Origin: Varibaculum prostatecancerukia
GTDB taxonomy: Bacteria; Actinomycetota; Actinomycetes; Actinomycetales; Actinomycetaceae
Assembly: GCF_943169825.2 (NCBI RefSeq)
Contig: NZ_OW968402.1
Location: forward strand, 992,001 to 1,056,000
Reading direction: 5' to 3'
Length of the DNA stretch: 64,000 bases
The notes beneath the pieces are model-generated. The model was given only the letters and a program-made list of their open reading frames with translations, searched no databases and was not told the DNA's origin. The position numbers and the translations under genes are program-made. Position 1 is the stretch's first letter; each line of letters opens with the position of its first letter. Positions 56,530-62,594 of the stretch are shown one piece after another.

Positions 56530-58374
56530 GTGGCTATGGATAGGTGTCCCCGTTGTCAGAGTGTGTTTTCAGCCGAAAGTGGTTATTGCCAAAACTGCGG
56601 ATATCGTCCAGATAGCCAGTTTTCGCCAGGAAATGATCAGACGAGAATGGTGGGGCAAAACAGTGCAGGAGCCTCTGCCTCACCTGTGGGGAGTGGTCAG
56701 CCTGTGGGCTCTCCGGTACCGCCGGTAGCTCCCGTACCGCCGGTGGCTCCTCCAGCAAGTTCTGCCCCGGGCTATGAATCACAGTCGTGGCAGCAGCCGG
56801 TTTACCCGGGGGCAAATCCCGGGAAAAGCGGGGGCGCTCCAAGTTATTATCCGCCTTCTCCCAATGGGGGTAACGCCGGTGGGGATGGGAACTTGCCGGA
56901 AAAGTGGTATCGCAATAAAAAGACTTTATTGACGGTGATTATTGGGGCGGTAGCGGCTATTGCTTTGGTTTCCGGGATTGCCTGGGCGGTTAGTGGTTCC
57001 CCTAAACCGAAACCCACCGTCGCCAGCAGCCCCAGCAGCGAAACCACCAGCGAAACCCCTACTCCCGAGATTACGCGAGTGGAGCTGCCTGCGGAATTCA
57101 CGGGTGGAGAGAATAAATATGATTCCAATTGGCGATGGCAGGGGGGAGCCATGGTTACAAAGATTGAGCACCAAGGGGAGGTAAAGAGTCGCAAGTTTTA
57201 TTTTCAAGTGTGGACTCCACAGTTGAAAGAGGGAGCAGCGGCATGCGAATTTTCGCCCGCTCAAGGTGGAGAAAAGACAACCGACAACGATATTACGGTA
57301 ACTGCCACCTACGGGGATAAACCGACGGTTTTTGTGGTTTATACGATCCTTACCAAGGCGGTGGGAACTTCTCCGGAAACTGTTCACCTCTATGCCCAAG
57401 AACTAGAGTTGCCGTCGTGTACGGCTAAGCCCCGCATAGACCTGCAAACCGAGGCCGATAACGTGGTAAATGATCGACAAGATTATGACTACGAAGTGTT
57501 AGGTAGGTCAGAAAAAAGTATTGCGGTAGCCAAGAGATGGATTACTCAGCAACCATCTGATACCGATGAGACAAATCTATATCATATACAAGTTATGGCG
57601 ATAACTGAGGGGCAGGCTAAAGCTACCGCGCTACAGGAAGCCTCTGGCAGTATATATACGCTCGTTGTTCGTACCAGCAATACCAATGATATCTATGCCA
57701 TTGCTACGGATAAACGTCGTTTTTATTCAATTGATAATAATAAAGTTATATTCGAACTTCCCTTAGATTTTGAAAATGGGATGACGAGTTGCAATTTTGA
57801 GACATCACCCCCTGATGGTGACCTCGCTTTATTTAGGCTCAGCTCTGAACTGTATTTATATAGCTGTGAGGGCGAACTAGATGGTGATAATTACGTTGGG
57901 GGTACGTATATCGTTAACTCCACTAACGCGAAAATGACTCCTCTTACTAGTTTGACTAAGTTTTCTTCCGATGTGGACTACCAGAAGGCGCGTTTTCGGC
58001 AGTTTAAAGATGGATCCGTACTAGTTACCAGTTCTGATTTTATCCAAGCATTTTTAGTGGGTACCGACGGGAAGGTAAGTGAGATATTAGACCACGCCCA
58101 GTGGGAACGGCTTTTGCATAACCAAGACAGTCACTTCGGAGATGTTAACTACCTAAACAACCAGTTCTATGTACAAACTACCGATGAAATTTTAGCGATG
58201 GATTTGACCGGCAAAAGCTTGAAAACCCTAACGATGGAGCCAAATATAGCTTCTCTAAAGATCGATGCAACTAAGGTTAAATGGATTGCCTGGCAAAGCC
58301 CGGATGATAAATATAAAAACTCTGTGACCCTAACCACCGGCGCTTTGCCTGATGAATCGGAGGATACAGACTAG
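56530..58374 (+). CDS. Zinc-ribbon, single-span protein with large exported domain
   Basis: A 614-residue protein of unknown function. An N-terminal zinc ribbon CPRCQSVFSAESGYCQNCG is followed by a Pro/Gly/Ser-rich cytoplasmic linker (about 40-125). One membrane span (TLLTVIIGAVAAIALVSGIAWAV, about 137-159) and a Ser/Thr-rich stalk follow. The 430-residue C-terminal part is beta-rich and acidic and would be outside the cell. The architecture recalls actinobacterial sensor or envelope proteins; the outer domain may be a beta-propeller, which is inference. Start is GTG 56530 or ATG 56536. The 3' half (about 57450-58000) is visibly more A+T rich. Confidence 0.75.
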   Translation: MAMDRCPRCQSVFSAESGYCQNCGYRPDSQFSPGNDQTRMVGQNSAGASASPVGSGQPVGSPVPPVAPVPPVAPPASSAPGYESQSWQQPVYPGANPGKSGGAPSYYPPSPNGGNAGGDGNLPEKWYRNKKTLLTVIIGAVAAIALVSGIAWAVSGSPKPKPTVASSPSSETTSETPTPEITRVELPAEFTGGENKYDSNWRWQGGAMVTKIEHQGEVKSRKFYFQVWTPQLKEGAAACEFSPAQGGEKTTDNDITVTATYGDKPTVFVVYTILTKAVGTSPETVHLYAQELELPSCTAKPRIDLQTEADNVVNDRQDYDYEVLGRSEKSIAVAKRWITQQPSDTDETNLYHIQVMAITEGQAKATALQEASGSIYTLVVRTSNTNDIYAIATDKRRFYSIDNNKVIFELPLDFENGMTSCNFETSPPDGDLALFRLSSELYLYSCEGELDGDNYVGGTYIVNSTNAKMTPLTSLTKFSSDVDYQKARFRQFKDGSVLVTSSDFIQAFLVGTDGKVSEILDHAQWERLLHNQDSHFGDVNYLNNQFYVQTTDEILAMDLTGKSLKTLTMEPNIASLKIDATKVKWIAWQSPDDKYKNSVTLTTGALPDESEDTD

Positions 58375-60165: not shown

Positions 60166-60615
60166 ATGAGAATTCATGTAGCCTGCGATCACGCAGCATT
60201 TGACCTAAAAGAAGCATTGGTTACTCATCTTCAAGATCAAGGTCTTGAGGTAATCGACCACGGGGCTAAAGAATATGATGCCCAAGATGACTACCCCAAC
60301 ACCTGTATTCCCTGTGCCGAAGCCGTCCTCGCAGATGAGGGCTCCCTGGGAGTGGTACTCGGGGGATCAGGCAACGGAGAACAGATAGCAGCAAACTGCG
60401 TTAAGGGAATCCGGGCAGCTCTGGCTTGGAGTCTGGAAACCGCTAAGCTAGCCCGCCAACACAATAACGCTCAGATTGTGGCTGTGGGAGCGCGAATGCA
60501 TGAAACCTCCCAGGCGCTGGCCATAATTGATGCTTTCATTGCGGAACCATTCTCCGGGGATGAGCGTCATCAGCGGCGCATTGATTTAATGACCCAATAT
60601 GAACAGGAAAAATAG
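60166..60615 (+). CDS. rpiB: Ribose-5-phosphate isomerase B
   Basis: Interconverts ribose-5-phosphate and ribulose-5-phosphate in the pentose phosphate pathway. The 149-residue RpiB/LacA/LacB-family protein shows ACDHAAFDLKEAL at the N-terminus and the phosphate-binding LGGSGNGEQIAANCVKGIRAAL. The position normally Cys or Ser for catalysis is Ser in GGSGNG, as in mycobacterial RpiB. HNNAQIVAVGARM and RRIDLM end the family pattern. The degenerate ABC gene starts inside its last codons. Confidence 0.94.
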   Translation: MRIHVACDHAAFDLKEALVTHLQDQGLEVIDHGAKEYDAQDDYPNTCIPCAEAVLADEGSLGVVLGGSGNGEQIAANCVKGIRAALAWSLETAKLARQHNNAQIVAVGARMHETSQALAIIDAFIAEPFSGDERHQRRIDLMTQYEQEK

Positions 60616-61315
60616 TTCCCCAGTCAAGCATCTAGAAATCCCCAGGGCGTGTCTGAACGAGGTTTATTACCCTGGGGATAAAAGCAGGGAACCGCTGCTG
60701 GCGGGGGTAACATTCACGGTTAGGCCGGGTGAGATGCTGGCAGTTATTGCCTCAGCTCCCGTCAATACCGCCTTAGTAAACTTGATTTCCGGTCTGGATA
60801 ATCTCCAATCGGGCAGTATTGAAATCGAGGGACAAGATCTAGGGGAAATGAGTCCCCAGCAGCGAGCTTGGTTGCGGCGAGAAAAGGTCGGCATAGTAAT
60901 GCCCTCGGGAAACCTAGTGGGTGGGTTAACTGTCGCCGAAAATATAGCGCTGGTTTATGAACTTTCTGGGATTCATCACCAACAGGCGCTTTCACGCGCT
61001 GGGGTAGCTTTAGCAAATGTTCGCGCCTCTGAAATTGGGGATCACTATCCCCATCAACTAGGGGTTTTCAACCAGCAAAAAGTGGCGATAGCCAGAGCCG
61101 GACTCGGGGGAGCGAAACTGATATTAGCTTTCGACCCAGATTTAGAACTAGAACCTGAAAAGGGAGAGCAGATTTTGGATCTGCTGCGCAAGCAAGTGGA
61201 AAAGGGCGGTTCTTGCTTGCTGCTTACCGAACGAGAATCACTAGCAAGTTTCGCTGATCGCTCCTTGAAAATTCAGTCCGCAACGGTAGCTGTAGGGGAG
61301 CAGGATAATGACTAG
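60599..61315 (+). CDS. Degenerate ABC ATPase-like protein lacking catalytic motifs
   Basis: A 238-residue protein with the overall fold of LolD/MacB-type ABC ATPases but no usable active site. Walker A, normally GxSGSGKST, reads ASAPVNTAL with no lysine. The Q-loop glutamine is lost (VMPSGNL). The signature LSGGQ is LGVFNQQ. Walker B reads LILAFDPD instead of LLADEP. The switch His is Glu in LLTERES. Flanking framework stays recognisable (VTFTVRPGEMLAV; NLISGLDNLQSGSIEIEGQDL; RREKVGIV), and the frame is intact. It overlaps rpiB by 17 bp and the permease gene by 8 bp. It is probably a non-hydrolysing partner, not random decay. Confidence 0.85.
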   Translation: MNRKNSSPVKHLEIPRACLNEVYYPGDKSREPLLAGVTFTVRPGEMLAVIASAPVNTALVNLISGLDNLQSGSIEIEGQDLGEMSPQQRAWLRREKVGIVMPSGNLVGGLTVAENIALVYELSGIHHQQALSRAGVALANVRASEIGDHYPHQLGVFNQQKVAIARAGLGGAKLILAFDPDLELEPEKGEQILDLLRKQVEKGGSCLLLTERESLASFADRSLKIQSATVAVGEQDND

Positions 61316-62594
61316 AGCCGGTTTGACTTGGAGATTGGCTTACAAAGGTCTCAGCCGTAATGCTCGCTATACCTGGTTAGTATTTACTCTGGTTGCAATA
61401 GCTTCTTGTCTCATGACTGTGGTCACGATCTCGCAGGTCACCCGGGATCCGATGGTGGCTTCTCCTCAAGAGGCTGTTTTTCCGGCGGCCAGCGCCGCGG
61501 TGGTGTACCGTCCGAAGCTCACTTGGCAACAAGTGGACGGTCTCGAGTTTTCAACTGTAGACGGACAGCGGCAATGGGAAATCGGGGAAGGGGCAAATCC
61601 TTTTATTCCCGACAATCAAGATCTCGTAAATGTTCTAGGCAAAACTCGGCTGGAACCTCTGATTTTCGCCTCGGGAAAGTTTATGCCTGCCAGCTCTCAG
61701 GCAGATCGCGCAGATCTTGCGGGGCTGGCTGGAAACTGGCAACTTTTAGATCCGCTTGCAGATACGGTGGTAAAAGGGAAAAATCCGGTTAAAATTGACG
61801 AAATTTCCTTAAGTCGCAAAACCGCGAAACAGTTGTCCTTAAAAGTGGGGGAGGAAACTTTCGGCAGTAAAATCTGCTCTGCTAACACTTGCCTAAAGGA
61901 TAGAAAATATCGGGTGGTGGGGATTTTTTCGGCACCGCACAGCCATTGGCAACAGTTTCGATTGGCGACAAACGCAAAAAATAGTTTCCTTAAATCCTCC
62001 GCTGGCTCAGAAAATCAGGAAGTTAGACCTAGCTGGCCATTCGCTAAACTTAACGACCAGGAAAAGAAATACCCTTACTTTATTTACTCCTTCCAGGTAT
62101 TAGCGGATACTGATATATCTCCAGAACAAAGAAGCAGGTTGAATACTGCGCATTTGCGGGTTATCAACATTTACGATCAGCCATATTGGGATTTTGAAGC
62201 GATTAGTTTCGCCCAGCGCACCTTGCTTTTCTTACCCGCGGTGGCAGTCTACCTACTGGGACTATTCTTCCTTAACCTGCCGGCCATGAACCGTCTGGTG
62301 TTTAGACAACGCGAGAGTTTTCAAGTGCTACGACGTGTTGGCGCTTACCCTCATCTAATTCCCCAAGTTTTAGCAGCTCAAGCTATATTACTGGGGATAG
62401 GTGGAAGTGCCGCGGGCGTTATAGTTGGCTACGCTCTGCAACAAATCATCATTAGTCCCGATACTGGTGCGCCTCATATCGTATTATTCTTCCTAGCTTT
62501 AGCGGCTGCCCTCGGGGTTTTGTGCTGCGTATTAGCAATGCTCCGGGCGTTGAAAAATACCCGGAAAAGTCAGCGGCCGATAATAGGTAGATAG
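61308..62594 (+). CDS. FtsX/MacB-type permease
   Basis: Membrane protein of 428 residues with MacB-like topology: one N-terminal span (YTWLVFTLVAIASCLMTVV), an outer domain of about 250 residues, then three spans (LLFLPAVAVYLLGLFFLNLP; VLAAQAILLGIGGSAAGVIVGYAL; IVLFFLALAAALGVLCCVLAM). The motif RRVGAYPHLIPQVLAAQAILLG fits the FtsX family. MacB-like systems do mechanical work for lipoproteins, peptides or hydrolases rather than pumping through the membrane. Here the co-encoded ATPase lacks catalytic residues, so energy coupling is uncertain. Confidence 0.85.
   Translation: MTRAGLTWRLAYKGLSRNARYTWLVFTLVAIASCLMTVVTISQVTRDPMVASPQEAVFPAASAAVVYRPKLTWQQVDGLEFSTVDGQRQWEIGEGANPFIPDNQDLVNVLGKTRLEPLIFASGKFMPASSQADRADLAGLAGNWQLLDPLADTVVKGKNPVKIDEISLSRKTAKQLSLKVGEETFGSKICSANTCLKDRKYRVVGIFSAPHSHWQQFRLATNAKNSFLKSSAGSENQEVRPSWPFAKLNDQEKKYPYFIYSFQVLADTDISPEQRSRLNTAHLRVINIYDQPYWDFEAISFAQRTLLFLPAVAVYLLGLFFLNLPAMNRLVFRQRESFQVLRRVGAYPHLIPQVLAAQAILLGIGGSAAGVIVGYALQQIIISPDTGAPHIVLFFLALAAALGVLCCVLAMLRALKNTRKSQRPIIGR

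Follow-up and report, generated by a model that had tools for sequence, protein, structure and literature searches.

An ABC-type pseudo-ATPase with no recognisable ATP site, kept beside its own MacB-like permease in the genus Varibaculum

Type VII ABC systems are defined by the use of ATP in the cytoplasm to produce movement outside the membrane. In a Varibaculum genome (one contig of 2.21 Mb, G000 below), a gene of this ABC lineage in which every motif of the nucleotide site has been replaced lies in frame beside a permease gene, and the question that the locus raises is whether the two form an old module that does without ATP or a pair of genes in decay. The window referred to throughout is the whole stretch of 64,000 nucleotides that was analysed, and the features on which the argument turns are the following, in window coordinates.

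60166..60615, + strand: rpiB/LacAB-type isomerase (open reading frame, Pfam).
60599..61315, + strand: ABC-fold pseudo-ATPase, 238 aa, MacB/LolD/FtsE branch, nucleotide-site motifs all lost (open reading frame, Pfam ABC_tran, motif alignment, predicted fold).
60734..60790, + strand: former P-loop region, residues 46-64, MLAVIASAPVNTALVNLIS; no Gly-Lys-Ser, one residue shorter than canonical (motif alignment).
60929..61051, + strand: helical subdomain, residues 111-151; conservation peaks here, 31 of 41 columns being invariant across the four species (ortholog alignment).
61109..61153, + strand: former Walker B/D-loop, residues 171-185, GAKLILAFDPDLELE; Phe for Asp, VLEP in G005 (motif alignment).
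61308..62594, + strand: permease, 428 aa, MacB-like layout of TM1, outer domain of ~255 residues and FtsX-type C-terminal TM region (open reading frame, Pfam FtsX, hydropathy).
62412..62489, + strand: most conserved permease stretch, residues 369-394, TM3 end and next loop, AGVIVGYALQQIIISPDTGAPHIVLF (ortholog alignment).

The open reading frames bear out an earlier, sequence-only reading of this DNA in which an intact ABC frame overlaps its permease by 8 bp and an M23 peptidase gene lies three genes upstream in the same direction; the start of the pseudo-ATPase frame likewise overlaps the end of rpiB, by 17 bp. The window also encodes, at 56530-58374, a protein of 614 aa whose N-terminal part resembles a zinc ribbon and which has one likely transmembrane segment and a weak beta-propeller match; it is present in G005, but the space ahead of the M23 gene in G001, G003 and G004 is too short for it (G000 to G005 being the six Varibaculum genomes compared).

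The pseudo-ATPase matches Pfam ABC_tran at 45.8 bits (cut-off 25), and its alignment to other ABC proteins of the same genome agrees with the earlier claim that Walker A, Q-loop, signature, Walker B and switch histidine are all replaced while the framework residues are retained. The canonical P-loop VVGxSGSGKST has become VIA-SAPVNTA, one residue shorter, the Q-loop FQ has become MP, the signature LSGGQQQR reads LGVFNQQK, the Walker B ADEP reads AFDP, and the TH of the switch is TE. Membership of the MacB/LolD/FtsE branch is indicated by the top PDB matches, which are MacB and LolD; the score against the FtsE model is 97 bits, for a cut-off of 265. In a tree the protein groups with intact MacB-type ABC proteins of the Actinomycetaceae, several of which adjoin large permeases with about ten hydrophobic segments, a placement that is unsure because these rows were picked as best matches and the branch is long. 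The predicted structure is a full ABC domain (mean pLDDT 89.8, from 24 aligned sequences) whose best PDB match is the ABC domain of E. coli MacB (TM-score 0.84 by query length), and since the alignment included intact paralogues, which bias the model toward the canonical fold, it shows a sequence compatible with the ABC fold rather than the native course of the loops.

The permease has a Pfam FtsX match (PF02687, 31.3 bits, cut-off 25.5) at residues 316-421, and its hydropathy, with segments at 24-42 and 299-317 and three further windows of which the last two adjoin, fits four transmembrane segments without proving them. Only the C-terminal part aligns in profile comparison, and the FtsX-type region there matches LolF (E 8e-6) and, weakly, YtrF and LolE. 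Within the outer part, between TM1 and TM2, residues 139-184 give a weak YbbP match, the rest has no detectable match, and the Pfam search returned no match to the MacB_PCD outer fold (PF12704). The predicted structure of the permease, built on three sequences, is unusable (pLDDT 34.9). The outer domain, which the sequence-only reading suggested as the functional part, does not clearly stand out as the most constrained region of the permease: 44-45% of its columns are invariant compared with 62-82% around the TM3 end and following loop.

Whether the window copy is an oddity of one genome can be answered from its orthologues. The pair occurs in four of the six Varibaculum genomes (G000, G002, G004 and G005), each time in the order rpiB-ABC-permease-ackA and with the rpiB-ABC overlap; identity to the window copy is 80% in G004, 72% in G002 and 59% in G005 for the ABC protein, and 82%, about 71% and 48%, respectively, for the permease. 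No nucleotide-site motif survives in any of the four ABC orthologues, partly by different replacement residues, and a one-residue P-loop deletion is common to them all. Intact Walker motifs in close relatives had been named beforehand as the mark of a decaying copy; all four Varibaculum copies are without them and form one clade (stem of 2.05 changes per column, support 100/100), the branching order of which matches a species tree from kgd and so fits vertical inheritance. The motif loss is older than the split of all four species. Because the elements by which a working ABC ATPase is recognised (Walker A, Walker B, Q-loop, signature, switch His) are missing from all four orthologues, the protein is a descendant of the ABC ATPase branch and not a working member of it.

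Beyond the genus, 213 Actinomycetaceae genomes yielded no ABC intermediates (the next best score was 148 bits, against at least 435 for the four, and those next-best loci whose motifs were inspected have intact P-loops), and for the permease neither these genomes nor 297 genomes of the order nor plasmids gave any relative that matched outside the common C-terminal domain. No close relative of the pair outside Varibaculum turned up in the genomes searched. A literature search, of incomplete coverage so that absence from it is weak evidence, found no P-loop-less ABC partner of an FtsX-type permease.

A second point on which the sequence-only reading had hung its case, that shared motif loss should go with low dN/dS, came out in its favour. 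By the Nei-Gojobori method, with values at dS above about 2 near saturation and therefore rough, dN/dS is 0.14-0.23 for the pseudo-ATPase gene and 0.16 for the permease (the one unsaturated pair); the neighbours are mostly lower (rpiB 0.03-0.05, gdpD 0.07-0.16, M23 0.05-0.10). In a simple neutral simulation at the G000-G004 synonymous distances, 7.9 stops were expected in the ABC gene and 16.6 in the permease, and none of 2000 runs stayed open. Across the four pseudo-ATPases 76% of columns are invariant in the helical subdomain, 40% in the P-loop region and 37% in the Walker B region, and in an intact ABC control from the same genus the figures are 98% for the P-loop, 100% for the signature, 93% for Walker B and 88% for the helical subdomain; the control set comes from partly different, closer species, and the ranking alone is compared. 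That ranking is reversed in the pseudo-ATPase, where the helical subdomain stands at the top and the former ATP site is poorly conserved. Shared motif loss, purifying selection and reversed conservation together argue for an old pseudo-ATPase/permease module rather than a fresh pseudogene. The ABC protein is thus, by comparative evidence, a pseudo-ATPase without a recognisable ATP site, old in the genus, in frame beside its own permease and under purifying selection, and the earlier view of it as the intact partner of a permease, not a decaying single copy, is upheld by the motif loss that all four copies share and by the selection on them.

Partial loss of an ATP site is seen elsewhere in the same genome. 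At G000:C1 about 124400-128050 (L103:9416-13047) lies a gene for a semi-degenerate MacB-type ABC protein in which Walker A is intact, the catalytic Glu is replaced by Gln (ADQP), the signature is altered and the switch His is lost. Of these changes, the Gln in Walker B and the missing switch His are conserved in G002, G003 and G004. Its membrane protein has 526 aa and no Pfam match, and next to it are an intact ABC gene, an 874-aa FtsX permease and a histidine kinase/response regulator pair. As read from its motifs, this locus shows that partial ATP-site loss occurs in a second context.

The reversed ranking and the open frames bear directly on the idea of slow decay, in which the function of the pair was lost or weakened in the genus and the genes are vanishing. 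In G001 and G003 ackA follows directly after rpiB and the pair is absent; in a search for ABC gene remnants 3' of rpiB in these two, one of eight pairs was marginal (18 of 2000 shuffles). The kgd tree, which includes outgroups, places G005 as the earliest branch of the genus (support 100/100 for Varibaculum as a whole and 85/98 for the other five), and as G005 has the pair, loss in an ancestor of G001 and G003 is the simplest reading. In V. vaginae (G002) a 1-bp frameshift near L061:8290 (L061:8280-8310), beside a G/A homopolymer run, breaks the permease frame in two; it may be genuine or may come from an error in sequencing. Absence from two of six species, together with this frameshift, makes the pair dispensable, and a dN/dS several times that of rpiB would also suit decay. 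Against this, both frames are open in three species despite near-saturated synonymous sites between G005 and the others, where drift would have brought many stops, constraint falls on particular parts (the helical subdomain and the TM3-TM4 region) instead of evenly, and the four species parted after the motifs were lost; slow decay is an unlikely account. We likewise find it rather doubtful that the pair assembles with an intact MacB-type ATPase and permease from another locus into a mixed complex, on the pattern of heterodimeric ABC transporters with one degenerate site, of which other ABC types offer well-known examples (PMC12038006, PMC4046567). The genome holds about ten other MacB-type ABC proteins, and the semi-degenerate one at about 124-128 kb, with its own membrane protein, does adjoin an intact pair. 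No intact partner is encoded at the locus in any of the four species, however, and each of the other MacB-type ATPases examined adjoins a membrane protein gene, which leaves no obvious orphan ATPase to lend. The degenerate site of known heterodimeric ABC proteins is usually only partly degraded, unlike that of the pseudo-ATPase, which has lost all the motifs and one P-loop residue besides.

A last alternative, suggested by the sequence-only reading, is that the pair regulates wall hydrolysis in the manner of FtsEX, with the upstream M23 peptidase as its target. The run of genes from M23 to the permease on one strand, closely spaced or overlapping, speaks for it, but G001 and G003, which lack the pair, have kept M23, gdpD and rpiB together, so that the expected co-occurrence with the M23 gene is contradicted by the want of any co-loss. 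A canonical operon of ftsE (with intact motifs), ftsX (304 aa) and an M23 gene, within an ftsE-ftsX-M23-smpB cluster, is found elsewhere, at G000:C1 about 779-782 kb, and the likeness of the permease to FtsX is confined to its C-terminal domain. The wall-hydrolase idea is largely refuted for the pair, and we regard it as highly improbable.

We give about even odds to the reading that the pair is a genus-specific type VII (MacB-like) ABC complex turned ATP-independent scaffold or receptor. The pseudo-ATPase would fold as a normal ABC domain and use its helical subdomain to dock on the permease, most likely with two copies of each protein in the complex. The groove that receives the permease coupling helix is shaped, in FtsE and MacB, by the stretch that follows the Q-loop (PMC7468199, PMC5985334), and with the helical subdomain so conserved we infer that selection keeps docking rather than ATP use; the TM2-TM3 loop, the major coupling helix site in MacB, is only 30% invariant, which weakens the docking argument. 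The pseudo-ATPase might then stabilise the permease or hold it in position as a fixed scaffold on the cytoplasmic side, or offer a binding platform, and the permease, through its outer domain and TM3-TM4 region, might act as a passive envelope receptor, sensor or tether in place of an ATP-driven mechanotransmitter. The more specific form of this reading, in which a MacB-like permease serves as a passive envelope receptor and its ATPase has been converted to a pure scaffold or ligand-binding cap, is tentative. Against an ATP-independent module stand the dispensability of the pair, seen in its absence from two species and in the V. vaginae frameshift, and selection weaker than on the neighbours, rpiB above all.

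Among known systems MacB, the type VII exporter of MacAB, is like the pair in that profile and fold comparison both pick out its ABC domain as the best PDB match (5lj9) and its permease has one TM, a large outer domain and an FtsX C-terminal region; here, by difference, the two parts are separate genes, there is no nucleotide site, and neither a MacB_PCD match nor an adaptor gene next door is present. LolCDE/LolF, B. subtilis YtrEF and E. coli YbbAP share the FtsX C-terminal matches, and a short outer stretch is weakly YbbP-like, but their ATPases are active. FtsEX is likewise a type VII ABC partner of an FtsX-domain permease with a wall peptidase nearby, whereas the ATPase of the Varibaculum pair appears to be dead and the outer domain runs to about 255 residues. 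The heterodimers BmrCD, PatAB and Rv1273c/72c resemble the pair in having an ABC domain that selection has kept although its catalytic residues are lost. They differ in that one complex joins a degenerate site to an active one, whereas the Varibaculum locus encodes no active partner.

Varibaculum is a human-associated genus, and as the evidence is comparative and from one genus, we consider the importance of the finding moderate. A conserved type VII member without an ATP site would separate what the ABC domain contributes as structure from what it contributes as energy, and the pair would be a natural test of permease action without power.
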